Origin: Bdellovibrionales bacterium CG10_big_fil_rev_8_21_14_0_10_45_34
GTDB taxonomy: Bacteria > Bdellovibrionota > Bdellovibrionia > Bdellovibrionales > 1-14-0-10-45-34
Direction: 5' to 3'
Length of the DNA stretch: 64,000 bases
NCBI GenBank assembly: GCA_002778785.1
Contig: PEZS01000008.1
Coordinates: 7,207 to 71,206 of the forward strand
This document shows positions 27,699 to 50,130 of this stretch, piece by piece. The notes under the pieces are model-generated. The model had not been told where the DNA came from and made no database searches. It saw only the letters and a program-made list of their open reading frames with translations. The position numbers were made by a program, and so were the translations under genes. How positions within the stretch are numbered: position 1 is the stretch's first letter; every line of letters begins with the position of its first letter.

Positions 27699-28346
27699 TC
27701 AGTCCTTCAGCTTGCTGTAATCCCGTTCGATTTTTTCGGCCTTTTTTGAATGGCTCTTCCAAGTGGCGACTTCTTTTGAATAGCCCTTTTCCTTAGAGTC
27801 CCATTTTGTGAAATCTTGTTGGGCCTGGGCTAACTTTCGGTCGATTTCGGTCTCTAAATCCGTCACTTGATCTCTTTGTGACTGCCAGATCTCTTTTTGC
27901 TGATCGACTTCTTTGATCTTGTTCTCATAGCTAGCGATCACTTCTTCGCGCTTCTTTATGTTTCCTTCGATTCTTGCGATAGTTTGCTTTAGACGATCGA
28001 TTTGCTCGCGCTCTTTAGCGATAGAGCGATTTTCGTTGTCGACCTCTGATTGAATCTGACCGCGCTGTTGCTCAAGTTCCTTCCGGCTGGTCTCTGAGTT
28101 CTTCCAGTTCTCACGAACCTGCGATTTCTGAGTGCTCAGGGTCTTGATCGCCTTATTCACTTCATCCACATTTCCCTTAACAATGCCATGATTCTTCTCA
28201 TATTGCTCAAGATTCGACTTCGCATTTGAAGAATTGTTCTTAAGTAGCGCCATTGACTCTTCAAGCTCTTCGTCGGCCATTGCAGTGGCCGGCAACTGCA
28301 GACATAACGCCAGAATCAAATACTTACTGATATTCTTTTCACTCAT
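27699..28346 (-). CDS. Periplasmic coiled-coil protein, last gene of gliding-type operon 1
   Basis: A 215-residue protein with an N-terminal signal peptide (cleavage near AMADEE) and an almost continuous coiled coil from residue 30 to 200, rich in Glu, Lys and Gln. No enzymatic motif is visible. It lies 17 nt after the TPR gene and belongs to the same transcript. A structural periplasmic spacer or scaffold is a reasonable guess. Operon 2 has no counterpart within the window. Confidence 0.65.
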   Translation of the reverse strand: MSEKNISKYLILALCLQLPATAMADEELEESMALLKNNSSNAKSNLEQYEKNHGIVKGNVDEVNKAIKTLSTQKSQVRENWKNSETSRKELEQQRGQIQSEVDNENRSIAKEREQIDRLKQTIARIEGNIKKREEVIASYENKIKEVDQQKEIWQSQRDQVTDLETEIDRKLAQAQQDFTKWDSKEKGYSKEVATWKSHSKKAEKIERDYSKLKD

Positions 28347-28363: not shown

Positions 28364-30907
28364 TTATTTCCTGCAGTTGTCTTGCAGACTAGATCTGTAG
28401 TTACCGATCTCGTCCTCCCAAAACTCACCATCAAAACTCCAGTTAAGATCTTTTTCTTTAGGCTTAAAAGACGAAGGCAATCGCCTTTCGGTTTTCGTAT
28501 TCGCAGCCAGTTGATAGCGAAGGTTCTCTCCGCTGCCGGCAAACACTTCATATCTTAAGAATTCATTGTTCTCGAACTGCCTGTTGAGCTCGACCTTGAT
28601 CTGGGCCATTCGCGACTTAACTACTTGCCCCGCACTCTCTTTTATCACTGCCATTCGAGACGCTAGCCGTCGCTGCGCCACCTTTTCGAATATTGAAAGT
28701 CCTTTTTTGCTTTCTGTATAGGCCTCTAACTGAAAGTCATACAGCCTAATAAACTCATTCTCTGTTAGAATTTCGTTCTTCCACTGGCTCTCATGTTTTA
28801 TCGTGTCAGGGCGTTTTGCGATCAGCTCTAACTTATTTTTTGTTGCGGCAATGCGCTCTTCGGCTTTTCGGCGCAGCCACTTCGTTTTACCAATATCGCG
28901 AGCTATCAGGTTGTAGAGTGTCTTGTACTGATCTCGCTCATCTATTCGGTGATTGAGTTCTTCTTGAAAATTTAAGAAAGCTTTTGTTCTCGCGAGCTCT
29001 CTTAGCACTAGCGGAGACAATCCGTCTATGTTCGACTTAGAGTTGGAAGTTCGCAAGTATTTGTAGATCGTGCCGTAATATTCATTTGGACTCTTCTTGG
29101 CCGCACTGTACGTGCTAATCTCCTTGTTGGCTCTACCGTAAATACCCTCGAGTGCACTCAAGGTTCTGTAAGCGTCCGGATACTGGCAAATATTTAGGTA
29201 GCCAATCGTTCGCACGACATAAGACTCGGGCTTAAATACGAGATCAAAATACGGTGAATGGATCGAATGCATGTTGCCAATCGCACCAGAGCTATCAGTG
29301 GCTAGCAGTTGACTCCACGCCTGTTCTACAAGGCCTTGAATCCAAAATGGATTGTCGCGTCTTAAAACCCGGTAGTGATCAACCGCTAATTTAAACTGCT
29401 TGCGCTGAAACGCGTACCTTGCAAGGTTCAATGCTGCTAACGTATAGGTAGTCTCATCCACTTTGTGGCGACTCATCCACTCCATAACTTTCTCTTGTGT
29501 TTTGTAGGCTTCTTCAACCCTTCCTTGCGCATACTCTGCAACCGCCCGTACATAGAGAGCTTTCCCGTAGTGTTTAGCCTGAGGGCTAACTTTATTTGCG
29601 GCAACCTCGGCCGATTTGTAATGACCGGAGCGAGCGCTCCCTTTTGCAAGAATGTAAAAGAAGTCGTCTTTAACTTTCTCTGGAATCACGCTTTCGTCTG
29701 AAACCGTGCGAAACGCGTCAGCCACTTTGGTCTCAAACTCCATCTGAACATACTTAGTGAGCGATTCGATGGCTCGTGACTTGTACTTCAGATTCTTAGA
29801 ATCAACGACCGAAATCAGGCGATCAATAGATTCCGAAAAAAGGCCCATCTCATGGAGACAGTAACCCAGGTAATAGTTGACCTTTATCTGATACTTGGAA
29901 CTCTCAAGCTTTAACAGATCCGACAACAGACCTGCCGCCAAATGGCATTGGTCTTTATTGGTTGCAAAAATCAGTGCACGAACAAACTTAAGATCTTCTT
30001 CAGTCATGCTCATATAGGGCTTAAGATCGAACTCAAATTCTTCTTTTTCTTTGTATTGAACGCTCTTAACCTTGTTCAAGCTGATGATTTGGTCTTCACG
30101 TAAAGCTGAGATCTTAATTTCTTTCGGTATCGGCTCGCTGACTGCTTCGCTCTTAAGGTACTCGGCAAATTTTTCTTTTGTGTAAAGGGCTTGAACCGGG
30201 CGCTTCTGCCACTCGGGCAAGATCAATTTGGGAGCTTTGAAGTTCGGTATTTCCCACTGACCCGCAGTAATTATTTCTTCTTCGCCGACATCAAAACGCG
30301 GAATCTGCTGCATCTTAGCTTTAGCCGAAGCAATCGATCTTTCAGAGCCAACAGACGGCGCTCCAACTGTAAAGGTAGGTACACCCTGAGCAGAAAGCGT
30401 TAGCTCTCCGGAGGGGGCTCGACCAGCAGTTGCAACTCGCAATGACTTTGTTTCTTTAAACTCCGAGAGCGCCTGTTGTTCTCGTCTATTATTCTTGTAG
30501 GTTTCAGGATCTTGCTTCTTAAGAGCTACATTCGGATCGAAAGCCTCTTGCTTGCCTGATAGACCGATTGCGACTTTTACGGCCTCAACCTTTTCTTTTA
30601 CCCAGCCAGCGAACTTTCCAAATGCACCCGTTGGCTTTTCTTCTGCCGCTTTAGCAGAACCAGCCACTGAAGAGACAGCTCTACTACCACTGCCCCCAGA
30701 TGCTCGCCCTGTGGCATCAGTTACCTGAGTAGATTTTTGTAGTGAGTCTTGTCCAGCATCATCTCTGGCGTCTTGACTGCCCGCTAATCCGGCACCTTGT
30801 CTGTGCGACACACCTCTATCTGATGGGTCAAAGGACTCAACCTCACGAGCTTCTAGTCGAAGTGAAAGCAGTAGAGCTAGTAAAAGCCAAAGACCTTTGA
30901 TGTTCAT
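28364..30907 (-). CDS. Exported TPR protein, GltC-like (operon 1)
   Basis: An 847-residue exported protein with signal peptide (to about residue 20), a disordered Ser/Gly/Asp-rich segment (about 25-90), an unknown linker, then TPR-type helical repeats from about residue 315 to 600. Near residue 530 it has HSIHSPYF followed by ICQYPDAY. The C terminus ends FDGEFWEDEIGNY. Both segments recur in the 542-residue protein at 60688, making the two paralogues; this one has an extra N-terminal part of about 300 residues. By operon position beside an OMP_myx-like barrel it corresponds to M. xanthus GltC (inference). Confidence 0.7.
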   Translation of the reverse strand: MNIKGLWLLLALLLSLRLEAREVESFDPSDRGVSHRQGAGLAGSQDARDDAGQDSLQKSTQVTDATGRASGGSGSRAVSSVAGSAKAAEEKPTGAFGKFAGWVKEKVEAVKVAIGLSGKQEAFDPNVALKKQDPETYKNNRREQQALSEFKETKSLRVATAGRAPSGELTLSAQGVPTFTVGAPSVGSERSIASAKAKMQQIPRFDVGEEEIITAGQWEIPNFKAPKLILPEWQKRPVQALYTKEKFAEYLKSEAVSEPIPKEIKISALREDQIISLNKVKSVQYKEKEEFEFDLKPYMSMTEEDLKFVRALIFATNKDQCHLAAGLLSDLLKLESSKYQIKVNYYLGYCLHEMGLFSESIDRLISVVDSKNLKYKSRAIESLTKYVQMEFETKVADAFRTVSDESVIPEKVKDDFFYILAKGSARSGHYKSAEVAANKVSPQAKHYGKALYVRAVAEYAQGRVEEAYKTQEKVMEWMSRHKVDETTYTLAALNLARYAFQRKQFKLAVDHYRVLRRDNPFWIQGLVEQAWSQLLATDSSGAIGNMHSIHSPYFDLVFKPESYVVRTIGYLNICQYPDAYRTLSALEGIYGRANKEISTYSAAKKSPNEYYGTIYKYLRTSNSKSNIDGLSPLVLRELARTKAFLNFQEELNHRIDERDQYKTLYNLIARDIGKTKWLRRKAEERIAATKNKLELIAKRPDTIKHESQWKNEILTENEFIRLYDFQLEAYTESKKGLSIFEKVAQRRLASRMAVIKESAGQVVKSRMAQIKVELNRQFENNEFLRYEVFAGSGENLRYQLAANTKTERRLPSSFKPKEKDLNWSFDGEFWEDEIGNYRSSLQDNCRK

Positions 30908-31782
30908 GCGCCCGGCTCCGCGACCTTAGACTCACTCAACTCTTCTTTGTTACCAAACCGATCCAGATAGAAGGTTAGCCCAAGTAGGATGGAAATGGAG
31001 TGTGTAAACGTCGTCTGTGCAATTGTTCCGGGTCGCTGAGCATCTTCTATTTGTTGTTGAAAAAAGCGATTCTTCATCTCAAGCATCAACGCAAAGTTTT
31101 TGTTTAAGAAAAAGTGCTGGGCGATATCAAGTGTAAGAACGGGAGCAGAAAAATTTTGACCGCTTGCCGCTTTTAACGGGTCTACCGTTCCTTCATATTG
31201 CATATAGCCTATTCCCGGAGAAATTGAGAAATCAAAGTAAATAATCTTTTGTTCTAGCAACGAAAGCTTCGCGTAGATTGGAATCCAGTGAAACGAAGCT
31301 CCATAAAAATTATTGAATATTGTATGATTCGGCGGGGCACCAAACCGCGACTGGAAGTCTTTTACGATTCGATTTCCCTCAGTATTGAACGAAGAGTAAT
31401 TTAAGCCGACTCCGGTTCTCTCTGTAAAGTAATAGTGCCCAGTGAGTGCCAGCTGACTGCCAGAAAGATACGGATCATTGATTAACGAACCATATGCGCC
31501 TGTGAATGCAAATCGGTTGTCTTTCGTGTATCGACGGTTTTGGACAACTTTGAACTCAGTATCCCTTGGGGCCCAATATCTCTCTTGAAGATCAGAGATA
31601 TCCACCTTTTCGTCGCCGTCCTTCTTTGGTTTTGTTTCAGGTGCAGCTCCTTCAGTTGGCTTTGGCTCTACGTTAACCAGGGAGCTTTTTTTAGCTTTCC
31701 TTTGGTAAGCCGAGCTTTGTGAGCTTCCGATGCTTGCAGACAAGAGTATTGCCATCGCTGCGATGATAGTAAAGCGTCTCAA
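30904..31782 (-). CDS. Outer-membrane beta-barrel protein, OMP_myx_plus-like
   Basis: A 292-residue protein with a signal peptide (to about residue 22), a basic/acidic linker, and a domain of alternating aromatic strands from about residue 85 to the end. It resembles the outer-membrane barrel family of M. xanthus GltA/GltB, with segments such as ALTGHYYFTERTGVGLNYS and SISPGIGYMQYEG. Similar layouts occur in the barrels at 62313 and 63264. The stop overlaps the TPR gene start by 4 nt, so the barrel and its presumed TPR partner are co-translated. Confidence 0.75.
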   Translation of the reverse strand: MRRFTIIAAMAILLSASIGSSQSSAYQRKAKKSSLVNVEPKPTEGAAPETKPKKDGDEKVDISDLQERYWAPRDTEFKVVQNRRYTKDNRFAFTGAYGSLINDPYLSGSQLALTGHYYFTERTGVGLNYSSFNTEGNRIVKDFQSRFGAPPNHTIFNNFYGASFHWIPIYAKLSLLEQKIIYFDFSISPGIGYMQYEGTVDPLKAASGQNFSAPVLTLDIAQHFFLNKNFALMLEMKNRFFQQQIEDAQRPGTIAQTTFTHSISILLGLTFYLDRFGNKEELSESKVAEPGA

Positions 31783-31830: not shown

Positions 31831-33318
31831 TTACTGAGTGGCCTTAAATAAGAACGGGTAAGTCACTAAAACGGAAGTCCCTCCCTTTGGCAGCGGGAAC
31901 TTCCATCTGGCAACGCGTCTCAAGATACATCCTTCAATCATGGCGTTGTTCATTGTTGTCGTACCAATTCGTGGCGATGTAGTTGTACCTTCTGCCACGA
32001 TCGTAAACTTAATCACTACTTTTCCGTAAAGATCTGGGTTGCCACTAAGCTGGCGTTCGTAACAGTATCTGATCTGGCCCAAATCTTTTTTTATCACTTC
32101 TGCAATTACCTCTCTATCAAGTCCACCCTCAACTAGGGTCTCTTCATCAATCACACCTACGTTAGCAAGACCAACAGCTCCAGTCGCCAGGGAGGCACCA
32201 GATCTATAGGCACCGGATCCGCCGCCTTTGCCTTGAGTCTTGACACCGTCAACTCGATAAGGACCTTCATTCAAAGCGGCCCCAGCTCCGTCACCAACTT
32301 TTGCACCAGAAGCCAATGTTGCTAAACTCCTAGAAGATTTCGGATTATCTGGGCTTAAACCGAAGGCCTGAAAGCTATTGGCACCCTTTGCGGCTCGCTT
32401 TGAGATCTTTCCGATAAGTTGGTGTAAACCAGTTGCACGAATTTTTGAAATTGCATTCTTCACTGCTGGCTTGCTATCCGCCCCGCCGGTGGAAGGTGTA
32501 GGGTCTGGGTTCTGAGGCCCGGCTGCTGCCTCTATGTTCTTCATTTGCTGTTGAGTAAACTTAAGAGCCTGAGCGCGTTTCTCTTTGATGATTTTTGCAT
32601 CAAATATCATCTCTGTATATTTTGAAGGCGACTCTAAACTGAGATCATCCGTAGGCTTTTTAGGAATTAATAAACCAATGATAAATGCCATAACCATCAA
32701 TACTGAAAAGATCTGAAGTGGCTTTTTAAACTCCTCCGGAATATCAACAGCTTCAATCGCCGCTTGATGCGGCAGTGAAATCAAACGCCTGCGAACTTCC
32801 GTTTTACCAACCACACTCGTTACCCATCCGCCATCTAGCGCAGAAGGCAGTGGAGTCTCAACGCCGTCCAGTAAACGACTCTTAGTCTGACCCTTAGGTT
32901 TTATATCTACTTCGACCAACTTGCCGTTTCTCAGTAACACCCACTCTTGATGTGTTAGATTCTTAGAGTCGCTTGAAAGCACTTCTACGTCACGGGTATA
33001 TAGCGGTCGAGGGTTGTTTAGCCTTCGAACAGATAAAGTATGCTGACCTATACGGAACTCATGCTCACCAACAATCGACATCTCAACAATGCCTTGCTCT
33101 TTGTACCAAGTACCGGTTTCGCTACCGCAATCCATAATAAACCAACCGCCACCACGACATTCTATGACAGCATGAAACGGCGACACTTCTGCACCCATAA
33201 GCCTGAGGCTAGCTTTTGGAGATGAACCCACGGCCGTAGAATAGCTTCCGGGCATTAACTTAATTGCCCTTACAAACCGTCCAGCCGTTCGATGCTCAAT
33301 CCAGAGTTGATTTGCCAT
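31831..33318 (-). CDS. FHA-TM-TonB-like protein, GltG/PglI-like (operon 1)
   Basis: Predicted trans-envelope coupling protein of 495 residues. It has a cytoplasmic FHA domain (about 27-97) with GSSPKASL and SPFHAVIEC, then one transmembrane helix (about 201-219). A Gly/Ala/Ser-rich periplasmic stretch follows. The C-terminal domain (401-495) is of the AgmX/PglI TonB-like type: Cys419 in CYERQLSGNPDLYGKV and Cys464 in EGCIL. FHA domains bind phosphothreonine peptides, which suggests kinase-linked control. Its paralogue is at 54084. In M. xanthus such a protein spans the periplasm and contacts outer-membrane components during gliding. Confidence 0.82.
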   Translation of the reverse strand: MANQLWIEHRTAGRFVRAIKLMPGSYSTAVGSSPKASLRLMGAEVSPFHAVIECRGGGWFIMDCGSETGTWYKEQGIVEMSIVGEHEFRIGQHTLSVRRLNNPRPLYTRDVEVLSSDSKNLTHQEWVLLRNGKLVEVDIKPKGQTKSRLLDGVETPLPSALDGGWVTSVVGKTEVRRRLISLPHQAAIEAVDIPEEFKKPLQIFSVLMVMAFIIGLLIPKKPTDDLSLESPSKYTEMIFDAKIIKEKRAQALKFTQQQMKNIEAAAGPQNPDPTPSTGGADSKPAVKNAISKIRATGLHQLIGKISKRAAKGANSFQAFGLSPDNPKSSRSLATLASGAKVGDGAGAALNEGPYRVDGVKTQGKGGGSGAYRSGASLATGAVGLANVGVIDEETLVEGGLDREVIAEVIKKDLGQIRYCYERQLSGNPDLYGKVVIKFTIVAEGTTTSPRIGTTTMNNAMIEGCILRRVARWKFPLPKGGTSVLVTYPFLFKATQ

Positions 33319-33321
33319 TTT

Positions 33322-33564
33322 TTACCTCAAATACTCCAACGATTCTTTTATTGACTGATCAAAACGGTCTCGGACCTTGTAAAGGGGAACAAAGTCAACT
33401 CCTCGCTTCTGAACGAGGTAGGCCCCCTCCGGTTTTCTTACAAGTCCATCGACCTCAACATTTTCGAAATTGATCTCTTGCGTTTTTGTGTACTTCTCTT
33501 TTGCCTCAACTAAGTAAGAAAATCCCAAAACTGAAAGAACACTTAAGAAAATTAGTTTTTTCAT
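33322..33564 (-). CDS. Small exported protein conserved in both gliding-type operons
   Basis: An 80-residue protein: signal peptide (to about residue 21), then a 60-residue mature part with INFENVEVDGLVRKPEGAYL and a later KVRDRF. The 84-residue product at 56300 has the same order (INFED...VEGELRKPE, KMRDNF) and the same place between the TPR lipoprotein and the FHA/TonB gene. This suggests a required periplasmic component, perhaps equivalent to GltF by position. No enzymatic motif is seen. Confidence 0.72.
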   Translation of the reverse strand: MKKLIFLSVLSVLGFSYLVEAKEKYTKTQEINFENVEVDGLVRKPEGAYLVQKRGVDFVPLYKVRDRFDQSIKESLEYLR

Positions 33565-34355
33565 TTTTTCACCTCCGCCTCGGGAGTTGTTTGTGAACTC
33601 GGAGTACGTTCTATTTTTGCATCTAATCGCTTTTCGACCTCTGCAATTCGTGCTTGCAGAGTCGAACTCTTTCGGTCTCTCTTCAAAGCTTGCTTGTAAG
33701 ATTCGAGTGCTTTTTGATCTTCTTTTTCCGATGAAAAAATGTTCGCGAGTGCAAAGTGGGTTTCATAACTTGACCCTTTGGCCTCTGCCGCCTTTTCTAA
33801 ATGTCGCCTAGCATTCGACCAATCGTTCTGCTCGTAGTAGACAAGCCCTAGAAATTGGTTCGCCATCCAAAGCTTAGGATCGAGTTTTAGCGCTAACTCA
33901 AAACTCTCAATGCCCTGCAACTTTTCATTCATTTTCCAAAGCAATCTTGCCCTCTGAAAGTGAAACAGACCTATTTCAGCCTTTCGAAGTGCAAGGTCGA
34001 TATACCAAAGAGCCAACGGGTAGTTCGCTGATTTTTCATCGCACAGTGAATGGAAGTAGGGGCCCCACGGGGAAAACCGATGGTTTTTTGCTATCACGTC
34101 GGCAATCTGTTCGACTTTTTTATAAGCTCCCATTTTTGCACATTCGTTAGCCGCGCTGACAAGCCCCTTCCAGTCCGATACGTCAATTTTTAAGGTGTCT
34201 TTAGGGCAGTTTGCGCTACTCTCTGTTAGCTCAGGAAGCACTTCTGTTTCGACTCCTTGGACGTAAGCTTTTCCAGCGGATCTCTCGTCCGTCATTTTTT
34301 GAACAGAACCGCAGCCCATCAATACAAATAGTAAGAAGAAATATACTATTTTCAC
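33561..34355 (-). CDS. TPR lipoprotein, GltE/AglT-like (operon 1)
   Basis: A 264-residue lipoprotein with lipobox LMGC (Cys15). The mature part holds about four TPR units from residue 90 to 235 (for example WMANQLFGLVYY-type and YETHFALANIF). It resembles the AglT/GltE TPR lipoprotein that in M. xanthus sits at the outer membrane. Four-nucleotide overlaps with both neighbours show tight translational coupling. The paralogue is at 56544. Confidence 0.75.
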   Translation of the reverse strand: MKIVYFFLLFVLMGCGSVQKMTDERSAGKAYVQGVETEVLPELTESSANCPKDTLKIDVSDWKGLVSAANECAKMGAYKKVEQIADVIAKNHRFSPWGPYFHSLCDEKSANYPLALWYIDLALRKAEIGLFHFQRARLLWKMNEKLQGIESFELALKLDPKLWMANQFLGLVYYEQNDWSNARRHLEKAAEAKGSSYETHFALANIFSSEKEDQKALESYKQALKRDRKSSTLQARIAEVEKRLDAKIERTPSSQTTPEAEVKK

Positions 34356-37288: not shown

Positions 37289-37798
37289 TTACTCCAACCG
37301 CAAAACGGCCAACTTGACATTCGCGTAACCTGCCAGCGTTGACGTATACATAATTTTCTTTAAAAGCGAGTAAGGTAGATCCCGATCCGCCTGAACGACC
37401 ACTTTACCTTCGAACTCAAAGGCTTCGTTGACAGTTGCAATGCTTCGACCCTTCTCTGCATGCTTGTCAAGTGCCTCAAAGAGCGGTCTTACAAACTCTG
37501 TGTCGTTGGTATCAATAGATTTTTGATCAAGCCTGAGATCGAATATATCAACTATCTTTTCGTCTTCGACAAATACGCCTTCTTTAGAAACTACCAGCTT
37601 CAAATATTCTTCTGGCTCTAGTGTGCTAGTTGAGGCCGGAAGCTTCAGACTATCAGTTGGAGTGATTTCATAGGGATTGGTGGAGTAGCTTTTAATAAGA
37701 AAAACGAGAATGATCATCAGCATGTCAACCATTGCTGTGATCTGAAGCACAAATGTGGCTTCCCCTCTTCTCCTATAGTGTTTCTTTGCCGCCGACAT
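37289..37798 (-). CDS. TolR/ExbD-family motor protein (operon 1, second)
   Basis: A 169-residue protein with a short cytoplasmic N terminus and a single transmembrane helix (about 18-36) containing the conserved proton-path Asp in AMVDMLMIILVFL. A periplasmic TolR-like domain follows. It pairs with the TolQ at 38353 and the other TolR at 37798 to form an AglRQS-like motor. It shares one nucleotide with the upstream TolR gene. Its nearest relative in the window is 52321. Confidence 0.88.
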   Translation of the reverse strand: MSAAKKHYRRRGEATFVLQITAMVDMLMIILVFLIKSYSTNPYEITPTDSLKLPASTSTLEPEEYLKLVVSKEGVFVEDEKIVDIFDLRLDQKSIDTNDTEFVRPLFEALDKHAEKGRSIATVNEAFEFEGKVVVQADRDLPYSLLKKIMYTSTLAGYANVKLAVLRLE

Positions 37799-38337
37799 TA
37801 CTTACCACCCAACACGTTTCCGAAAACAATATCCGGAAACATGAGATTCAATGCTACCGGTTTGCCACTAGCCTTGTCGGCCATAGATATTTTAGGATCG
37901 GCATTTCTCAAGTCTCGAAGCTCGTCCATAACCTTCACAATTTCGTCATATTTTATTTCGTCGGCCGGAAACAACTCTAATCGGAACAAATCTGAATGTT
38001 TTTGTTTAACCGAAATGGCCTCGTTGTGAATGGCAACGAAGTCGTATTTTGCAGTTGATGCTGGAACTACTTTTTCATGCTTACCTTGCAAATCGAACAG
38101 AACAAATTTTACAGAACGATCTGACATCAAATAAACTTGGAGACTTCTCTTGTCATCGTTTTGGTTCTGTTGAATGGCCTGAGCTACAGGCTGCGGAATA
38201 GGAGCGTCTAAAATACTCACCTTAACGAACACCGCGTAGAGTAGGAGCGCAGGTATAAGCACGACCATCATGTCTAGCATGGGCGCTAAGCTGAGTTCAA
38301 AAGTTGCATCTTCAATTCGCGTCTTCGCTGATCGCAT
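37798..38337 (-). CDS. TolR/ExbD-family motor protein (operon 1, first)
   Basis: A 179-residue TolR/ExbD-like protein. The transmembrane helix (about 17-38) has the motif LAPMLDMMVVLIPALLL with the conserved Asp. The periplasmic domain is larger than that of ExbD. Two TolR paralogues with one TolQ is the arrangement of the AglQ/AglS pair with AglR in M. xanthus. It lies 15 nt after TolQ. Confidence 0.88.
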   Translation of the reverse strand: MRSAKTRIEDATFELSLAPMLDMMVVLIPALLLYAVFVKVSILDAPIPQPVAQAIQQNQNDDKRSLQVYLMSDRSVKFVLFDLQGKHEKVVPASTAKYDFVAIHNEAISVKQKHSDLFRLELFPADEIKYDEIVKVMDELRDLRNADPKISMADKASGKPVALNLMFPDIVFGNVLGGK

Positions 38338-38352: not shown

Positions 38353-39078
38353 CTAAGACACCTTCGGTTTCGCCGGCCTTGCCGTAGATACCGCTGGCTT
38401 CACGTCTGCCTTTAAGTCACCCGGAAATGCCTTAGTTTCTGAGTATGTCTCAAAGGCGCGGCCAATAAGCCAGTCGACAACCTTACCGGAGCAATGGTCT
38501 AATTCCGCAAACAAACGACCTGTTCTTGAGTGCAAGAAGGAGTAGACAACCATAGTTGGTATAGCAACCGATAACCCTAATGCCGTCGTGTACATAGCTG
38601 TAGAGATACCTTGCGCGAGAAGTGTTTGTTTTTGCGACGGATCTGCATAACTTACCGCTTTAAAACTCATGATCAGTCCGATTATAGTAGCGACCAACCC
38701 TACCAGGGTGGCGACGTTCGCAATCATAGAAAGATAGCCCATCCCCTTACTGAGGTCTGTCGAGACTTCTGCTATCGCATTGTTACCTGCGTTCGACATA
38801 GCTCTTTCATCCCGATCTGCTTTCTCGAGAACTCTTTTGATCACGTAGGCTAGCGGCTTTTTGTCATTGGCCGCGCAAAATTGAATCGCCTCTTCGATTT
38901 TGTCTGCCTCAATAAGAGATCTGAGTTGTTTCATAAATTCTTCGGTCTTCAATGAGTACTCAAAGAATATCGACTTTATTCGCTCTACCGAAATCACAAA
39001 GCTAAAGAGCCCCATGACTGCGACAATGTAAGCAAGCACTTCATGCTCCGCTACAAATCCAAAGATGCTGTCTAACAT
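38353..39078 (-). CDS. TolQ/ExbB-family motor protein, AglR-like (operon 1)
   Basis: A 241-residue proton-channel subunit with three transmembrane helices: about residues 12-30, then NVATLVGLVATIIGLIMSF (about 122-143), then TTALGLSVAIPTMVVYSFL (about 164-186). These carry the family's small and polar residues lining the proton path. A cytoplasmic loop lies between helices 1 and 2. With the two TolR proteins it would form a proton-driven motor. It is 9 nt downstream of the VWA lipoprotein gene. Confidence 0.92.
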   Translation of the reverse strand: MLDSIFGFVAEHEVLAYIVAVMGLFSFVISVERIKSIFFEYSLKTEEFMKQLRSLIEADKIEEAIQFCAANDKKPLAYVIKRVLEKADRDERAMSNAGNNAIAEVSTDLSKGMGYLSMIANVATLVGLVATIIGLIMSFKAVSYADPSQKQTLLAQGISTAMYTTALGLSVAIPTMVVYSFLHSRTGRLFAELDHCSGKVVDWLIGRAFETYSETKAFPGDLKADVKPAVSTARPAKPKVS

Positions 39079-39087: not shown

Positions 39088-40068
39088 CTATTTCGCTCTT
39101 AATGGTTGATAATCTATCTTTACAGTTTCATTTGCCTTAGGGATCCAAGATCCGTGAAAACGGATTAACATTCTGTCTGGGTGGTAGGTCCATCCGTTGA
39201 CAGCGTCATTCGGCACTACAACTCCGTCAATTGTGACGACAATTGTTTCTGCTACGGGTTCTCTCGCTAGCTTGTACTCCATGATCATGCCAGAGATTCG
39301 CTCGCGAATGTTTTCTAAAGCCGTTCTGAGCTCACTAGAGCAAATACTTTGGTTCACGCCATTTGAAGCTCCAACAATGTCCATGTACCGGTAACCCAAA
39401 TCCGAAAACTCACCAAGGGTTCGGCACTCCGTCGAATCTTCTATTATTCCGATATAGTTAGCTAGCCAGCCTTGCGCGCCAAATTCAAAGATAGGTTTAA
39501 GGTTATTGAGAAAGTCAATATAGTCGATGCTGTTGCCAACACTCCAATCATCTTCGGAGCTTACAAATACAATCACGAGAGCTGCATCGCTCCTTACAAA
39601 ACCACCATTGGTTGAAGTGTGTTGCCCTGGGGTTAGCGCTAATTTCATAGCTTCAAGTCCGCGTTCAGTGCCACTGCCACTGTTACCGGGTGCTATGCGA
39701 GCACGAAACAAATCAACGAGGCCTGGAGTTTGCGGCGTCAATATTGAAGGAATCCCCAAGAATTTTCCTCTTTCGCCAGAACTACGCATATCTGTTGTTG
39801 TCGCCGCCATTTGAAAATCAAAGCCACGCTCGACAAAAAAGTTGATGAGACTGTCCGCTTGTTCTGCAATTTTAACCTGGTAGTCTCCCATGCCTGGGCT
39901 ATTGTCGATCACCCAAAGAACATCAATTTTATTGTTGTATTCAAGTTCTTGCGCAAAGCCTGTTTGCTCGGGTGCTAGACTAAAATTGTTAGAGCCACCG
40001 CCACCTTTGGTGCAGCCAATACCAACAAGAATTAATAGTGCCCACGAATGCCGAATCATAAGTTGCAA
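39088..40068 (-). CDS. VWA-domain lipoprotein, CglB-like candidate adhesin
   Basis: A 326-residue lipoprotein (lipobox VGIGC, Cys19). A von Willebrand A-type domain starts near residue 47 with VLWVIDNSPGM; the MIDAS DxSxS reads DNSPG, so the fifth position is changed. A later strand VIVFVSSEDDWS follows. The final 60 residues look like an immunoglobulin-like beta domain. M. xanthus gliding uses the VWA lipoprotein adhesin CglB, and the position directly before TolQ-TolR fits a similar role. Operon 2 has no such gene in the window. VWA identity is fairly firm, adhesin function is inferred. Confidence 0.7.
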   Translation of the reverse strand: MQLMIRHSWALLILVGIGCTKGGGGSNNFSLAPEQTGFAQELEYNNKIDVLWVIDNSPGMGDYQVKIAEQADSLINFFVERGFDFQMAATTTDMRSSGERGKFLGIPSILTPQTPGLVDLFRARIAPGNSGSGTERGLEAMKLALTPGQHTSTNGGFVRSDAALVIVFVSSEDDWSVGNSIDYIDFLNNLKPIFEFGAQGWLANYIGIIEDSTECRTLGEFSDLGYRYMDIVGASNGVNQSICSSELRTALENIRERISGMIMEYKLAREPVAETIVVTIDGVVVPNDAVNGWTYHPDRMLIRFHGSWIPKANETVKIDYQPLRAK

Positions 40069-40073
40069 GTGCC

Positions 40074-40988
40074 CTACGCAGCTGTTTCTACAAATCCTGC
40101 AATGGATCTCTGAGCCCCATCACTGATTTTAAGAAATTTTATCCCATAACGTACTGGTGCATTTGGATCTTTCAGGTCTTTAACATATTGTTTGCTGACA
40201 ACTTCACAGACAGCATTGAAGGCCGGCACATTGTCGCCCGCCTTGAAGTGAATGTAGAGCGTTTGCCCAGGTAGTGCCATCGAGTTAAACATAACTACCC
40301 CGGCACCTCCTTCGCTGATTTCGAAGCTTTCGCCCTTCCAGATTTTTCTGTTGTCGTGAACGATAATACTTCCGTTGAAGCTTGTTCTTAGGTGACGGCG
40401 CCTAAAAAAGATTTCATCCTTTTTGTCGCCCTTGTCGTCGCCTTGAAGTTTTCTGATGTAATTGCTGGCAAAAACAGCAACTTCAGCAACTCTTTGCCAA
40501 GTTTGCATTCCTTTGGTCCAAACAAAATCAAATTCAAAAACCGATTTCTCTTGTAGCATTTTCAGCATTTCAAAATAGGTAAATGGGCCGTAACGGTTGT
40601 CCCATTTCAGTACAAACCACTCTTCATCAGCTGTGTTTTGAGGAACTGGTTCTGGCGAGGTTGAAGTGAGATCCACCATTGCCTTGTCTGTTTGATGGGT
40701 TTTGTTTTTAAAATCGACAGAGACGACTTGTGCATTTGCAAAGTTTATGTTCGTCGCGTCTGTTTGAAGCAAAGTTGTTGTCAAATCTTGCGGTAAGGGA
40801 CTTCCTTGATCGAAGTTACTTTCAGCCCCAACAGAGAACTCATTGAGAGTTAGCCAGCTCTTACTATCTTCGGCATAGAAAAAGTCATCTTCTGTTAGCT
40901 CGCCCGTAGCTATTTTTTGGCGAACCTCCGCTTCAGTGTAAGGCCCGAACGTCTTGCCATCTTTTGAAACATGGATTCTCTGCGACAT
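40074..40988 (-). CDS. GYF-GYF-PilZ protein, first gene of operon 1
   Basis: A 304-residue cytoplasmic protein with two GYF_2-like domains (about 5-52 with FGPYTEAEV; about 123-172 with YGPFTYFEM) and a C-terminal PilZ domain (about 196-300). The c-di-GMP arginine motif RxxxR is Arg197/Arg201; the second motif reads EISEGG, so the usual D/N of D/NxSxxG is Glu. The ATG at 40988 is preferred because GGGGAG lies 9 nt upstream; a start at 41042 would add an untypical N terminus. It may link c-di-GMP to the motor encoded downstream. GYF domains also occur in M. xanthus GltJ. Confidence 0.8.
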   Translation of the reverse strand: MSQRIHVSKDGKTFGPYTEAEVRQKIATGELTEDDFFYAEDSKSWLTLNEFSVGAESNFDQGSPLPQDLTTTLLQTDATNINFANAQVVSVDFKNKTHQTDKAMVDLTSTSPEPVPQNTADEEWFVLKWDNRYGPFTYFEMLKMLQEKSVFEFDFVWTKGMQTWQRVAEVAVFASNYIRKLQGDDKGDKKDEIFFRRRHLRTSFNGSIIVHDNRKIWKGESFEISEGGAGVVMFNSMALPGQTLYIHFKAGDNVPAFNAVCEVVSKQYVKDLKDPNAPVRYGIKFLKISDGAQRSIAGFVETAA

Positions 40989-41111
40989 AGTTGTCACTCC
41001 CCTAATCTCAGGTATCGGTCGCTTTACGCACCAACTAAACATCTGAAATCACGGAGTAATCTTCAAAAAATTGTCATAATGTTGGACACACGACTCGCCC
41101 TTCGTCTCAAA

Positions 41112-41213
41112 AAGTACGGAGTCACTTGTGGGACTTGCTGCGTTAGTTAGTGTATCAAAAACGATCGCGATGACGATACTGACGCAACAAGTCCCACAAG
41201 TGACTCCGTACTT
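41112..41213. repeat. Inverted pair of 35-bp REP-like repeats
   Basis: The left arm 41112-41146 and the right arm 41179-41213 are reverse complements at 33 of 35 positions, separated by 32 nt. Each contains the core found in the 34-bp tandem repeats at 14975-15042 (GTCCCACAAGTGACTCC). The pair lies in the intergenic space between the divergent GYF-PilZ and TraB-like genes and would form a strong cruciform or RNA hairpin. Confidence 0.92.
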
Positions 41214-41302
41214 CATGGTTGATGGCACTGCCCAAGCTTTGCGCACTAAGTGAAATCTCTTCACTCTCACTCCCTAGGTCTCGTTTGGTATACTCAACGG
41301 TG

Positions 41303-42340
41303 ATGACCTCACACAAAGCCACTATAAGTCGATTTCGATTTGTACTTTGGCCTGCTCAGCAGCGGGCTTTCGCCGTTGATAAGCGCTTTGCTTTTTGGCG
41401 GCGTTTCTTTAGCCGCGGTTGTTTTTTGTCTATATCGTTTACCCTCGCTTCTGTCGCTATGGGCATTTCGGCTGGCCACGCCGAAAGTGGCGCACAGCTT
41501 TCATACGAAAACCTTGTGCACAGGATTGAATCCGCGGGAGTCGACGCGCAGTTGAGAAGATTCAAAATAAGTTCAGAAGAAAAATCACTTGTCATACTGG
41601 GTGAGTCTCACGTAAAGCCCAGAGAAGAAGCGCAAAAAGAATTAGAACTTATCAAGTTTTTTAAAGTGAGATTTCTTGAAGGATACGCAGGTAACGGCAA
41701 AGAGCCCTGGCTAAAAGAAAACGTTACACTTTTTTTAGCTGAATGGATTTTGTTTCCCATACTAAAGAGGGTCAAGCAGCTGGAAGCTACGACTCTTCAC
41801 AAAGCGACTGTCCAAGGATTCTACCTTTCTCCAAATGGAAGCCTCTTCTATGCAGGATGCTTTTTAGGTTCACAAACCTCAACTGGACTCGTATTGAATT
41901 CGATGGGCGTAGAAAACGTCCAACAAAGCCTTAAGCTAGAATTCAGAAAGTCTTTTCTTGCCCGACTAACGGAATTGTCAGCTTCCGCTGGGAGGGTTCG
42001 AAACGAACTTAGTGCAGAAAACTTACATTTTCCAGGAGACTTCAAAAACCCTCAGCCTTGCTCAAGGAGCAGCGTCAAAGTGAACTTTGAAGTCGGTGAC
42101 CTGAGAAAGTGGAATCGAAAACGCGTGTGTGGTGACTTGACTTGTGGGGCTTCGAAAGACCGACTCCCTAGTACAAGGGAGCTTAGAATGGTTGATAATA
42201 TTTGGCACTGAATGAAAGAGCTTTCTGATGACACAATTCCTCTTGTTATTGTTGGAAGGCTACACACGAAGGCCTTGGCGGATCTCCTGAGCAAATGGCC
42301 TGTGACGCGACGACAGCTCGAAAATCCAACAGTTCTCTAG
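41303..42340 (+). pseudogene. TraB/ChaN-like exported protein interrupted by an in-frame TGA
   Basis: The N-terminal part has a hydrophobic export segment (FLSISFTLASVAMG) and VILGESHVKPREEA, the GxxH-type first motif of TraB/PrgY/ChaN-like proteins. Downstream come PSTRELRMVDNIWH and then TGA (42209-42211). The same frame continues with ATG and reads PLVIVGRLHTKALADLL, matching the family's second G-x-x-H motif, until TAG at 42338. The conserved C terminus is thus cut off by a single nonsense codon. No ribosome site is seen for a separate second product. A start at the TTG 41219 is possible but reaches almost to the inverted repeat. Confidence 0.6.
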
Positions 42341-42363
42341 TATGTGATCTAGAGCGCCGCTTA

Positions 42364-42414
42364 GCTTCGTTTGTCGTGTGTTGGCGCGCCAAGGCGTTGC
42401 GCTCCAAGCGAAGC
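42364..42414 (+). other. Nested inverted repeats upstream of HAD gene
   Basis: Outer arms GCTTCG (42364-42369) and CGAAGC (42409-42414) enclose a perfect 12-bp palindrome TTGGCGCGCCAA (42381-42392). It could act as a terminator-like or leader hairpin. There is no T-run. Confidence 0.35.
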
Positions 42415-42476
42415 CCGATTAAATTCATTCGGTGAACTACCGACAAACTATTCTCAATCGTCTCTTGGAATCTTTA

Positions 42477-43172
42477 ATGCAGTCGAAGTTCGACAAGCCT
42501 AAGGGTCTCGTAGTTTTCGATCTAGATTCTACGCTCTTTGATGTTTCTCCGCGAACGCTCCAAATTTTGCATGACTTTGCAAGCACACCCAAGGCTCAAT
42601 CCTTTAGCTCTCATGCCTGCAAGAAACTCAAAGAAGTTAATAGCCTACCGAGCGTCTACCATTTAAAAGAGCTTACTCTCCACTTTAATTTGGGAGAAGT
42701 TCCACCCGAGTTTTATCACGCTCTTTTCCAATATTGGCGAGAAGAGTTCTTTAGCAATAAATTGTTGCACCTTGATCGACCAGAGGACGGAGCTATTGAT
42801 TTTTGCCATGAAGTTTTCGCAAAAGGGAGCAATATCATTTATCTCACGGGGCGAGACGAAGAGCGCATGGGGCTGGGAACGCGAAATGTTCTAAAGAACT
42901 TCGGCTTTCCGCTTGATGCCGAAAAGGCCCACGTCGAGTTAAAACCCCATCGATCTCTTGACGATGCTCTGTTCAAAAGAGACTTCCTTATCGAAATGCA
43001 CGCGTTAACAGATTTTGTTCCTGGCCCTGTGTGGTTTATAGAAAACGAACCCGCCAATATTGTGGCTGTTCGCGAGGGCCTTCCGCATGTAAATGTTATT
43101 TTTTTCGACAGCATTCACGCCGGTACCCACCCCGTCCCTGCGGACCTACCACACATCAAGAATTTCTTATGA
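42477..43172 (+). CDS. HAD-superfamily hydrolase
   Basis: A 231-residue soluble HAD protein. Motif I is VVFDLDSTLFD (Asp nucleophile with Ser in place of the usual Gly), motif II is YLTGRDEERMG, and a later acidic motif is FIENEPAN. TGRDE is typical of the acid-phosphatase-like HAD branch. The ATG at 42477 with GGA upstream is preferred over a GTG at 42432 that lacks a ribosome site. Substrate cannot be inferred. Confidence 0.75.
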   Translation: MQSKFDKPKGLVVFDLDSTLFDVSPRTLQILHDFASTPKAQSFSSHACKKLKEVNSLPSVYHLKELTLHFNLGEVPPEFYHALFQYWREEFFSNKLLHLDRPEDGAIDFCHEVFAKGSNIIYLTGRDEERMGLGTRNVLKNFGFPLDAEKAHVELKPHRSLDDALFKRDFLIEMHALTDFVPGPVWFIENEPANIVAVREGLPHVNVIFFDSIHAGTHPVPADLPHIKNFL

Positions 43173-43346
43173 ACCCTTAGATCAGCCTCGCTCAGTGGTT
43201 CATATGCCACGAAGTCCCATCTAAGCTTATGGAGCTGGGAATCTCCAATGCCGCAGCAAAGCGTCGCTTCAAATAGTGTTTACTTTTAGTTTGGCGCGAA
43301 ATTAAGCTACCAGAGCCAATTTGGCGGATATTTAACAGGGGGCTTT

Positions 43347-44717
43347 TTGAAAACACTCATTCTTTTTTTGCTAGCCGTTACGAATTCGATAACATTGCAG
43401 GCTGATCCCAAGCATCTACTCTTTGAAGCTAAGACGAGCGAGCTAAAGAATAGAAACAAAAATCAAAAGCTCAGCTCAGCGAAGGAGTTCTTGCAGACTC
43501 TCGATCACCTCACTGAAGGCAGCGATACAAAGTTCTCACAGCGTTACTGGATAGACTCTACTCGTGCAGAGAATTCGAATAGCCCTGTGCTCTTTTATTT
43601 GTGCGGAGAAGGAGAGTGCGGCCCTCAGCCTTTTCGAGGAGCCATCGCTAAGCATGCAGAAGAGTTAAAGGCGTACTTGGTCGCCCTTGAACATCGCTAC
43701 TACGGAAAAAGCCAACCGTTCGAGGACCTATCAACCGAAAACTTGCGTTTTCTCACGGTCGAGCAAGTTCTTCGAGATTACGTGAACTTTAAAAAGACGA
43801 TTTCGTCGCAATTGCAGTTGACCGGCAAATGGTACGCTGTTGGCGGCTCTTATGCTGGCTCATTAGCTGCCTACGCTCGTCTGAAGTATCCGGAAGATTT
43901 TGAAGGTGCTTTGGCCTCATCAGGTCCTGTAAAGGCCGACAATAATTTCGATGAATACGACCGACATGTTGCCGAGCAGGCCGGCCCAGCTTGTCTATCT
44001 GCAATTCAATCAGCAGTTCATCAAATCGAGGCAATGGTACAAGACCCCACGAGGAATGAAGCAATCAAACATCGTTTTCGCGCTAGCGAACTTACAAATG
44101 ACGACGACTTTCTTTACCTGATCGCCGATGTGGCTGCAGCAGCCATTCAGTATGGGATGAGAGATGAGTTCTGCGCCAAGGTCACTTACGACCCCGTAAC
44201 GGGATATATTGAAGCCGCGGCAATGGTGGGCAGGCTATTTGGAAATCTGGTAGATATGAGTGCGCATGCCGCTCAAAACACCAGCGTTGCCGCACACTCA
44301 GGGACGATTGGTATGAGGCAGTGGTTCTATCAGTCTTGTACAACATTTGGATTTTGGCAAAATGCTTGGAGCGACAGCGCCATGAGTGCACGCTCTAGTC
44401 GAATCAATAGTGAATATCACAAGGGGATTTGCAAGAGGCTCTTTGGTATTGAACAGCAGGCTCCTGAAGAGGCTGTAAATCGTGAGTTTTACCTGCCCTT
44501 ATTCAGCGCAAGTACGTCGAACATTTTCTTCACGAATGGGAATGAAGATCCTTGGGTTAATCTGTCGGTCGTGGATGCGAGCTCTTCTCGGCTAAACGCT
44601 TATGTGATTCAGAATGCTGCCCATTGCGACGACTTAGGATCTGGCTCAAACCCATTCGTTATTGAAGCCCAAAAAATGTTCCAAAGTTTAGTTCAGATTT
44701 GGAATGCAAAGAAGTAA
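43347..44717 (+). CDS. Secreted serine carboxypeptidase, peptidase family S28
   Basis: A 456-residue exported alpha/beta-hydrolase like lysosomal Pro-X carboxypeptidase and DPP-II. There is a signal peptide to about residue 19, then GEGECGPQPF and LEHRYYGKSQPF typical of S28. The catalytic triad is readable: Ser168 in GGSYAGS, Asp401 in GNEDPWVN and His426 in AAHCDDL. It cleaves Pro-containing peptides in known relatives. Start is TTG with AGGGGG upstream. Secreted prolyl peptidases of this type fit a predatory lifestyle, though that is inference. Confidence 0.9.
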   Translation: MKTLILFLLAVTNSITLQADPKHLLFEAKTSELKNRNKNQKLSSAKEFLQTLDHLTEGSDTKFSQRYWIDSTRAENSNSPVLFYLCGEGECGPQPFRGAIAKHAEELKAYLVALEHRYYGKSQPFEDLSTENLRFLTVEQVLRDYVNFKKTISSQLQLTGKWYAVGGSYAGSLAAYARLKYPEDFEGALASSGPVKADNNFDEYDRHVAEQAGPACLSAIQSAVHQIEAMVQDPTRNEAIKHRFRASELTNDDDFLYLIADVAAAAIQYGMRDEFCAKVTYDPVTGYIEAAAMVGRLFGNLVDMSAHAAQNTSVAAHSGTIGMRQWFYQSCTTFGFWQNAWSDSAMSARSSRINSEYHKGICKRLFGIEQQAPEEAVNREFYLPLFSASTSNIFFTNGNEDPWVNLSVVDASSSRLNAYVIQNAAHCDDLGSGSNPFVIEAQKMFQSLVQIWNAKK

Positions 44718-44744
44718 CTTGGCGTGAGTGAGAGGAGTTTAAAA

Positions 44745-45344
44745 ATGTTTCGGTTGAGGTTAAGAAGTATTTTTATATTGCCTTGTATAGCTATCATTGC
44801 TTTGAGCAACCACTCCGAAGCAACTTCACGACATAGCGATTGTACAAGCGAGCAATCCCAGCTTGCTGGTGCTTCTTGGTTACTGGTGAGTTTTTCGACT
44901 TTGTTTGCAGCATTCGACTCCGGTTATGAAAAGAAAGACAAGTTCTTGAACCAAGCGCTTATTGGAGCCGGCTTGGCGACATCATTTTTTGCACCGATGG
45001 TTGCGAGCGAAAATTGTTACGGCGACGTCTCTGCCGAAGAAGGCGGAAAGAACTTGGCCTCAGAACTAAAAGATGAGGGGTTTGTTTGGAACAGACAATG
45101 GACCTTCTCGGTCGTCAGTCTCTCAATTGCTAGCGCAATTGGAGCGACCGCTAACCCTGGGCCAACTCGTACGGCTTCTTTCCTGAGCGCAGGAGCGATA
45201 GCGGGGTTTATGGTGTATGAGCTGTTTCGTCCTAAGCCTCGAGGCGCGTCTGCGCAAGGTTTTATTATTCAGCCAACGTTGCTTCTGGCGAATCAGTTTT
45301 CAACGGAAACGGTTCCCGCACTACAAATGAATTACCGCTTTTAG
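44745..45344 (+). CDS. Membrane or exported protein of unknown function
   Basis: A 199-residue product with an N-terminal signal or anchor segment, then two to three further hydrophobic stretches rich in Gly/Ala (about 38-55, 65-85 and 125-165), and a C terminus that ends in Phe (LQMNYRF). The ATG at 44745 has AGGAG 9 nt upstream and is preferred to a start at 44724. Size and hydrophobicity would fit a small membrane protein or a small barrel. No family recognised. It is convergent with rpoN across a palindromic repeat. Confidence 0.65.
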   Translation: MFRLRLRSIFILPCIAIIALSNHSEATSRHSDCTSEQSQLAGASWLLVSFSTLFAAFDSGYEKKDKFLNQALIGAGLATSFFAPMVASENCYGDVSAEEGGKNLASELKDEGFVWNRQWTFSVVSLSIASAIGATANPGPTRTASFLSAGAIAGFMVYELFRPKPRGASAQGFIIQPTLLLANQFSTETVPALQMNYRF

Positions 45345-45355
45345 CCGAACCCACG

Positions 45356-45424
45356 AGGCGTTCAAACAGCGTCAGATGCAAGGCCGCAACTTCGAATTCG
45401 ACCGCAAGCGTATCAGCATAGCCT
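45356..45424. repeat. Partial palindromic repeat element
   Basis: Begins with GGCGTTCAAAC and continues CAGATGCAAGGCCGCAA, resembling the left half of the elements at 18916 and 19123. It starts 12 nt after the stop codon of the preceding plus-strand gene and runs straight into the complete element at 45425. Confidence 0.55.
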
Positions 45425-45552
45425 CAACAAATCCCAGATTGCGAGCAGAAGCACAAGCGCAGGCTGAGCCGTTCGAGGCGTAGTGATGACTACGTCGCAG
45501 ATCCGGTGAAGCCGAGCATTGCTGCTTATGCGAAGCAAGATGGGATTTGTTG
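45425..45552. repeat. 128-bp long-palindrome repeat element
   Basis: Outer arms CAACAAATCCCA (45425-45436) and TGGGATTTGTTG (45541-45552) are perfect 12-bp inverted repeats. The centre GGCGTAGT-gatg-ACTACGTC is another hairpin, as in the 19123 element. The right end abuts the rpoN stop codon directly. Length and architecture match the 127-bp element at 19123 although much of the sequence differs. Confidence 0.9.
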
Positions 45553-47019: not shown

Positions 47020-47028
47020 TTAACCACC

Positions 47029-48844: not shown

Positions 48845-48888
48845 AATATCATTCTCAATACTTACACAAAAGCTGCCGATTTTAACTC

Positions 48889-50130
48889 ATGATGAAGCGA
48901 GTCTGGTTTACATCAGTATCGAATCAGGTCCAAGGGCCTTTTTCAACCGAAGAGATTGAGCATAAACTGGCTCAAAATACATTTGCTAATTCGGATCTCA
49001 TTTGGTGCAAACGACAGTCACATTGGTTACCGATTTTTGCGTGGAAGACCGAAGCACCCAAAATTTTGGCGACTTTCGAAAAGGTACAGGTCGATACCGC
49101 CACTTGGTACCTTGAAAGAGACGGTCAAGTTTCTGGTCCGCTCAACCGCAACGAGCTTCTCAACCAAATAAAGAACACAGTTGATATTGATTCTCTTCGC
49201 ATCAGATTTGGAGCTGATGAAGTATGGCAGAGAGCTTTCGACTTTGGGGATCTGCTCGTCGATTTAGGCCTCAATAAACGGATACATCGAAGAGTGCCGT
49301 TTGCCGGCAGTGCTATTGTTCGAGCCAACAAAAAAGACATCCCGGTCGAGATCACAACCATTAGTGAAGGCGGTATAGGGATTCTGACAGACCAAAACTT
49401 GGCAGTCGGGTCGGAATATTCGGTAACCATAAATAGTGACCTGCTGTCGGCACCTCTTCATACTGTTGTACAGGTTCGGTACCACACGGGCCAATCCTAT
49501 GGGTTACAGTTTAAGCAAATTAACTTTGAGTCGAAATCAGTGATCCTTGATTACATTCGCCAGCTTACGGATGTTTCAATAAAGAATCCAAACCAAGACG
49601 AAATTGATGAGCTTTTCAAGCAAAGTAAACAGCCGACTTGGTATATAAAGGATCAGAAAAAACAATATGGGCCCTTCTCTTTAGACGAGACTCAAAAGGA
49701 GCTTAAGTCGCGAGACGACTTAGACGATCTGACACTTTGGACTCCCGGCCAAAAGCAGTGGAAGTCTGTTTACGAATTCAACGCTGTGCTCGAGACACTA
49801 GGGCTTTCGCGAAGGTTGCATATGAGAGCGCCAATTCAAGGCGCGTTTCAATATTCTCAACACGGCAAAGCTGATGTTAGTTTCAATATGTTTTCAATAA
49901 GTGAAAACGGACTCGGAATCGAAGGCGAAACAGGCTCTTCTCCTGGAGAGGTCATCGAGGGCAAAATTAAGTCGCGATTTATTGGGGTCGATATTTCCGT
50001 GAAGGCAAAAGTCATGCACTGCGAACGCGGTACCGTGGGTTTGGAGTTTTTGCAAATCACCGAAGAAAATCGCGCACTCATAAGGAACTACGTCGCTAAA
50101 TTTCAACCCGGCGCTAAGGCCGCCGCATAA
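48889..50130 (+). CDS. Multi-domain GYF-GYF-PilZ-GYF-PilZ protein
   Basis: A 413-residue cytoplasmic protein with three GYF_2-like domains (about 4-52 with QGPFSTEEI, 72-120 with SGPLNRNEL, 251-297 with YGPFSLDET). Two PilZ domains lie at about 131-225 and 308-402. Both keep the RxxxR arginines (Arg131/Arg135, Arg309/Arg313); the second motifs are TISEGG and SISENG, so the D/N is replaced. It is a longer relative of the GYF-PilZ protein at 40074. A c-di-GMP-responsive adaptor is likely, with an unknown target. It is divergent from lptC with only 44 nt between. Confidence 0.8.
   Translation: MMKRVWFTSVSNQVQGPFSTEEIEHKLAQNTFANSDLIWCKRQSHWLPIFAWKTEAPKILATFEKVQVDTATWYLERDGQVSGPLNRNELLNQIKNTVDIDSLRIRFGADEVWQRAFDFGDLLVDLGLNKRIHRRVPFAGSAIVRANKKDIPVEITTISEGGIGILTDQNLAVGSEYSVTINSDLLSAPLHTVVQVRYHTGQSYGLQFKQINFESKSVILDYIRQLTDVSIKNPNQDEIDELFKQSKQPTWYIKDQKKQYGPFSLDETQKELKSRDDLDDLTLWTPGQKQWKSVYEFNAVLETLGLSRRLHMRAPIQGAFQYSQHGKADVSFNMFSISENGLGIEGETGSSPGEVIEGKIKSRFIGVDISVKAKVMHCERGTVGLEFLQITEENRALIRNYVAKFQPGAKAAA

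Follow-up and report, generated by a model that had tools for sequence, protein, structure and literature searches.

PilZ-domain proteins of the YcgR and MotI type act as brakes or clutches of the flagellar stator MotA, which belongs to the same channel family as TolQ. In Bdellovibrio, where the motor, the adhesins and the force transmission of gliding have been called a major open challenge (PMC13104615), the closest described counterpart of the locus analysed here is the Bd1473-Bd1483 gliding operon (PMC3271064, PMC11003981, PMC2797640), in which genes for a PilZ protein and a MIDAS lipoprotein head a TolQ-TolR-TolR operon. The PilZ protein, Bd1482, was put forward in 2012 as a receiver of c-di-GMP in gliding (PMC3271064), and the MIDAS protein Bd1483 has itself been studied (PMC11003981); insertions in Bd1481 (aglR) or Bd1483 reduce biofilm predation by B. 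bacteriovorus (PMC2277423). Another pairing of a VWA gene with a PilZ gene, the consecutively numbered Bd3099/Bd3100 (PMC9140294, PMC2797640), lies away from TolQ genes; bd3099 and bd1480 show surface induction and both respond to Bd0367, with bd3099 lower in bd0367 mutants (PMC9140294). In Myxococcus xanthus, the gliding machine contains a GYF domain in GltJ (AgmX), a membrane protein whose C-terminus is of the AgmX/TonB type and which is reported absent from Bdellovibrio (PMC3169522).

The window, that is, the whole stretch of 64,000 nucleotides analysed here, comes from Bdellovibrionales bacterium CG10_big_fil_rev_8_21_14_0_10_45_34 (GCA_002778785.1, contig PEZS01000008.1, positions 7,207 to 71,206) and holds an operon with the gene order GYF-PilZ, VWA lipoprotein, TolQ-TolR-TolR, TPR, GltG-like, OMP, GltC-like (Table 1). 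The gaps between the first four genes are 14, 9 and 15 nt, which suggests co-transcription. The first-pass annotation had placed TolQ-TolR-TolR directly after the GYF-PilZ and VWA genes and had attached both proteins to the motor of this operon; the gene order was confirmed and the tie to the motor supported, the operon containing the set expected of a Glt/Agl gliding operon, namely, TolQ-TolR-TolR together with genes of the GltG and GltC kind and one for an outer-membrane barrel. The GltG-like and GltC-like proteins are relatives rather than certified members of these families because their scores fall below the NCBI equivalog cut-offs. No riboswitch or other Rfam RNA was detected ahead of the operon in positions 40000-50000 of the window. 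A search with the Arf family for MglA yielded one weak candidate of 200 aa.

Table 1. Coordinates of the GYF-PilZ and motor operon features, in window positions
Feature	Position	Strand	Basis or remark
GYF-GYF-PilZ protein, 304 aa, first operon gene	40074..40988	-	Pfam, AlphaFold model, PDB fold matches; ATG at 40988, stop ends at 40074
GYF domain 1	40839..40973	-	PF14237 at G000:C8:48045-48179 minus window offset 7206
GYF domain 2, adjoining PilZ	40476..40619	-	PF14237 at G000:C8:47682-47825; stretch aligns to GltJ GYF 7z3c
PilZ domain	40089..40403	-	PF07238 at G000:C8:47295-47609
RxxxR motif, R197 to R201	40386..40400	-	both arginines shared by 58/58 orthologues and 16/16 paralogues
ExSxxG, E223 to G228, replacing canonical (D/N)xSxxG	40305..40322	-	motif comparison
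VWA-fold lipoprotein, 323 aa	39088..40059	-	AlphaFold and fold search; ATG 40059, stop ends at 39088
Lipobox cysteine C16	40012..40014	-	invariant in 24 aligned sequences
MIDAS position, D52-N-S-P-G56	39892..39906	-	degenerate vs DxSxS
TolQ/AglR-type proton channel subunit	38353..39078	-	PF01618 3.5e-24
TolQ tail ...VKPAVSTARPAKPKVS, place of PP motif in relatives	38356..38430	-	tail comparison
TolR/ExbD subunit 1	37798..38337	-	PF02472 1.4e-10
TolR/ExbD subunit 2	37289..37798	-	PF02472 2.1e-13
Large TPR protein, 977 residues	34352..37285	-	conserved together with GYF-PilZ gene
Small TPR protein	33561..34355	-	
GltG-like FHA/TonB-C protein	31831..33318	-	NF033760 GltG 1.6e-52, below equivalog cut-off
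Outer membrane beta-barrel protein (OMP_myx_plus)	30904..31782	-	TIGR04565 4.1e-24, above cut-off
GltC-like protein	28364..30907	-	NF033756 7e-30, below equivalog cut-off
Coiled-coil protein, last conserved operon gene	27699..28346	-	synteny

The product of the first gene is, as initially described, a GYF-GYF-PilZ protein, with both domain types above the Pfam cut-offs: two copies of GYF_2 (2.2e-19 for the whole protein) and one PilZ domain (4.5e-10), a combination present in 26/26 aligned relatives. The solved folds nearest to its AlphaFold model (pLDDT 80.9) in a PDB fold search are MotI and the PilZ domain of c-di-GMP-bound YcgR, although such matches of a predicted structure do not in themselves show function. 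The likeness to YcgR and MotI comprises the PilZ fold and a MotA/TolQ/ExbB-family gene as neighbour; the present protein differs in that Pfam detects no YcgR-type N-terminal domain and finds the two GYF_2 domains instead, and that the neighbour, a putative binding partner, is TolQ and not a flagellar stator. When the GYF profile of the aligned relatives was compared with solved structures, the sole significant match was the GYF domain of M. xanthus GltJ (7z3c, E 1.4e-4); the single-sequence match of the window GYF to the same domain was weak (E 0.03). The GltJ comparison made in the first-pass annotation is therefore appropriate for the GYF domain but not for the protein, which is soluble, has a PilZ end in place of the TonB-type one and is not a GltJ homologue. 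An NCBIfam search of the complete protein gave no match. As candidates for GltJ, the genome's remaining GYF proteins were examined and rejected, one being a GYF-TPR protein and the other having no motor gene in its short locus.

The linkage of GYF-PilZ to motor genes is well supported by comparison across relatives. A single GYF-PilZ protein used as the query of the named genomes found no match, and the loci were recovered with the alignment as query. Among the 60 named loci so gathered, which were counted by eye from the table and of which several come from genomes shared with the 20-locus set below, 49 have TolQ, TolR or the TPR gene no more than about 3 kb from GYF-PilZ and in the same orientation; in nine there is a VWA gene only, and in two neither. 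In the 20 loci chosen by a GYF-PilZ or VWA match, GYF-PilZ mostly precedes TolQ or the large TPR gene, with or without VWA between them, and the three Bdellovibrionaceae loci of the set lack this arrangement. The gene order recurs across families of the order, which speaks for more than chance, in the layouts GYF-PilZ, VWA, TolQRR (layout 1), VWA, GYF-PilZ, TolQRR (layout 2, that of Bd1483-Bd1482) and GYF-PilZ, TolQRR, FHA (layout 3; L156, L157, L159, L160, L162, L165, L166). Across 96 good genomes, a close GYF-PilZ and the motor TPR protein co-occur (82/3/2/9, Fisher p 9e-9; stricter thresholds give 78/5/4/9 and p 9e-7), with the thresholds picked after the tables were seen and kinship ignored in both p values. 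Most of the genomes without them belong to f4, where genomes are small, or to f6.

Proline-rich peptides are the usual ligands of GYF domains, and a likely docking site here is the C-terminal tail of TolQ. Typical tails of GYF-PilZ-adjacent TolQ are QPPAPSNKAV and TPPSPGQKVS, and PP occurs in the last 25 residues of 34/45 such proteins vs 2/67 others, the controls including MotA and ExbB types. The two PP-bearing others come from L074 and L075, whose loci hold GYF-PilZ further off or on the opposite strand, so that the comparison becomes 36/47 vs 0/65 under a regrouping made after the result was seen; in a tree of the TolQ-like rows alone, which kept 27 controls, PP is found in 0/27. Because the GYF-PilZ-adjacent TolQ proteins form one clade (SH-aLRT 98) in this tree, which was built without the tail and in which PP needs four changes, an independent-contrast test of PP against adjacency is impossible; the pattern is compatible with one origin followed by losses and is suggestive of an interaction rather than a statistical test of it. 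The TolQ of the window ends in VKPAVSTARPAKPKVS, a proline-rich tail without PP, and PP is likewise absent from its close relative L069 and from the whole of layout 3. Docking of GYF-PilZ on TolQ is, on these grounds, plausible. A proline motif in the FHA/TonB protein was also considered as the GYF target and discarded, PP being patchy there.

Taken together, these features are best explained by a scheme in which the TolQ-TolR motor is regulated from the cytoplasm by the GYF-GYF-PilZ protein, acting as a nucleotide-responsive clutch or adaptor; the motor genes lie just downstream of its own. A GYF domain would dock on the C-terminal tail that TolQ exposes to the cytoplasm, R197 and R201 would let the PilZ domain bind a cyclic dinucleotide, and nucleotide binding would alter motor activity or assembly, as with YcgR and MotI on MotA. 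The VWA lipoprotein would most likely serve this machine in the outer membrane as an adhesin-type partner, and switch, motor and grip would then all come from a single operon. We give this chain as a whole about an even chance. In its favour are the linkage and the co-occurrence, the constant pairing of GYF_2 with PilZ, the PP tails, the invariant arginines, the MotI/YcgR fold, the GltJ profile match and the phenotype of the Bd1481 and Bd1483 insertions (PMC2277423); against it are the TolQ proteins without PP in the window, L069 and layout 3, the single clade to which PP belongs, the altered second PilZ motif described below, the L082-L084 gene pair away from motor genes and the neighbourhoods in other classes that lack TolQ. 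Should the scheme hold, PilZ control would extend from the flagellar stator to the TolQ/AglR motor class, and the Bdellovibrio group would have a so far undescribed route by which a second messenger acts directly on a gliding-type motor. The predicted peptide-sized docking site on the TolQ tail and the two invariant arginines lend themselves to a small set of direct tests.

Whether a nucleotide is bound depends on the PilZ site. The arginine numbering of the first-pass annotation is correct when counted from the ATG, and both residues also recur in the more distant relatives that were compared. The claim of a c-di-GMP sensor fares less well: the PilZ domain and RxxxR are present, but the canonical (D/N)xSxxG is not matched. 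Its D/N position is E in 52/58 and Q in 5/58 orthologues and S in 13/16 Bd1482-type paralogues, so that nearly the whole TolQ-linked clade departs from the canonical residue, which makes specificity for c-di-GMP uncertain, whereas 12 relatives from other classes, on a long branch and perhaps paralogues, have D. Tandem GYF-PilZ genes in other classes (L265, L266, L267) have T or S at this position and N in the neighbour. Conceivably, the PilZ domain no longer binds nucleotides and the protein simply serves the motor as a scaffold or an assembly adaptor, on the model of M. xanthus PlpA, which reportedly works without c-di-GMP binding. The replacements in the TolQ-linked clade, set against the D of the 12 relatives, fit this possibility, which we nevertheless consider rather unlikely: the invariant RxxxR and the serine and glycine of the second motif (S225 and G228), well kept over 96 sequences and present in the window protein, argue for a retained binding site, and PixB binds c-di-GMP in vitro even though the serine is missing from its motif (PMC8316039). 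Nucleotide binding by GYF-PilZ is likely, with c-di-GMP as the ligand not assured.

The second gene encodes a protein without a Pfam match, and the sequence support for a VWA domain is weak, a few relatives reaching VWA models (E 0.0004 to 0.003). The VWA fold is supported by structure prediction: the AlphaFold model (mean pLDDT 85.8) matches the VWA-like domains of integrins, with integrin alphaIIb-beta3 as the best hit (E 3.3e-9, probability 1.00), and among the 50 fold matches listed, 48 are integrin chains and two (ranks 24 and 39) are inter-alpha-inhibitor heavy chains. Along with the invariant lipobox cysteine, this upholds the initial description of a VWA lipoprotein. Matches of the VWA-alignment profile to HIV capsid chains were taken to be accidental, and the matter was decided by the fold search. 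As for the comparison with CglB drawn at the outset, the VWA fold on a lipoprotein stands, and the resemblance seen in sequence is to MIDAS adhesins and CglD: each of the 24 aligned VWA proteins is matched by the model of the Bdellovibrio MIDAS adhesin (NF052240, MIDASAdhsBdello) and by that of CglD (NF033765), and none matches CglB in NCBIfam, which may hold no CglB model. The window protein itself falls far below both cut-offs (55.6 bits against the NF052240 equivalog cut-off of 700). Nearly all relatives have DxSxS, with S56 nearly invariant, and the loss of this second serine in the window protein (DNSPG) makes metal-dependent adhesion by this copy doubtful.

It could be argued that the VWA lipoprotein is the main partner, with GYF-PilZ controlling export, display or turnover of an adhesin and the link to TolQ being secondary. 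In Bdellovibrio, GYF-PilZ and VWA genes occur together without TolQ (L082-L084, L144, L146, L147), one such pair in Bdellovibrionaceae lying away from motor genes (L082-L084). In other classes, the neighbours of GYF-PilZ are often VWA or FHA/TPR genes without TolQ, and divergent GYF-PilZ/VWA pairs less than about 250 bp apart recur (L268, L271, L273, L274, L276-L278), suggesting that the two genes were paired before the link to TolQ arose, or independently of it. However, in many loci of family f4 TolQ follows GYF-PilZ immediately, without an intervening VWA gene, and the two proteins reside in different compartments, so that contact between them would need an intermediary; we regard this alternative as unlikely. 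Improbable, too, is a Tol/Ton-like envelope machine outside gliding, for trans-envelope transport or surface remodelling and regulated by GYF-PilZ, which is favoured by the 4-18 MotA/TolQ/ExbB paralogues in every genome searched, by the much broader distribution of the core complex than of gliding-specific genes (PMC3169522) and by the organism of the window being known from its genome alone, but is opposed by the GltG-like, GltC-like and OMP_myx_plus genes of the operon and by the surface induction of bd1480 and bd3099 in Bdellovibrio (PMC9140294).

Returning to the regulation of TolQ by GYF-PilZ, one further version is that the TolQ-linked proteins are receptors of 3',3'-cGAMP rather than c-di-GMP and that docking on TolQ lets a Hypr GGDEF enzyme switch the motor directly. 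This idea, which we hold to be quite improbable as a whole, is raised by three observations: gliding of B. bacteriovorus requires cGAMP made by Bd0367, for which the paper names no receptor (PMC9140294); the D/N position has changed in almost all members of the TolQ-linked clade but not in the more distant relatives examined; and of the four GGDEF domains in the window genome, two have serine at the Hypr-marking position, as read by eye from the motif. Its premise, a preference for adenine conferred by E or S at the motif position, is putative; 3',3'-cGAMP is a candidate ligand, and the two serine-type GGDEF proteins are candidates for its synthesis. They belong to L115 and L116 (G000 contigs C10 and C11), with the motifs GHRVGS and DHLFGS, and the L116 protein is a REC-GGDEF like Bd0367.

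With Bd1482 and Bd1483 already noted at the Bdellovibrio gliding operon, neither the gene content nor the c-di-GMP idea is new, so the first-pass wording 'possibly undescribed' was too strong for the PilZ link (PMC3271064). The GYF part, the likely TolQ docking site and the order-wide linkage to TolQ/TPR motor genes appear undescribed in the literature searched, and this linkage is reported here together with the recurrence of the VWA pairing in other classes. No paper naming GYF together with PilZ was found, which is weak evidence given that most subscription papers fell outside the search. The loci with the Bd1482/Bd1483 layout (L091-L093, L095-L097, L174), equated with these genes by gene order and not by HD100 sequence, likewise combine GYF with PilZ in one protein and have a TolQ whose tail contains PP (in L174, B. 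bacteriovorus kdesi, ...TPPSPGQKVS); they differ from the window, where GYF-GYF-PilZ comes first, in opening with the VWA gene and in having a single GYF domain in the PilZ protein. The Bd3099/Bd3100 pair resembles the GYF-PilZ/VWA pair of L082 and L147, its assignment to the HD100 numbers being inferred.

Several other features of the window deserve mention. A second GYF/PilZ protein, GYF-PilZ-GYF-PilZ (48889..50130, plus strand), stands alone outside any motor operon and has T and S at the D/N positions of its two PilZ motifs. A near-perfect inverted repeat of 102 bp (41112-41213; 36-nt arms, 94% complementary) separates the operon from the divergent gene; with 57 matches in the genome and two more copies in the window at 14985-15044, it is a dispersed repeat and was rejected as a regulatory element of the operon. 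An IS200-like Y1 transposase domain (50480-51133, minus strand; 23.0 bits, just at the Pfam cut-off) is possibly REP-associated and linked to the dispersed repeats. Finally, a second TolQ-TolR-TolR/FHA/TPR operon (52321-63167, minus strand), without GYF-PilZ, encodes an FHA protein with seven consecutive prolines (residues 114-120).
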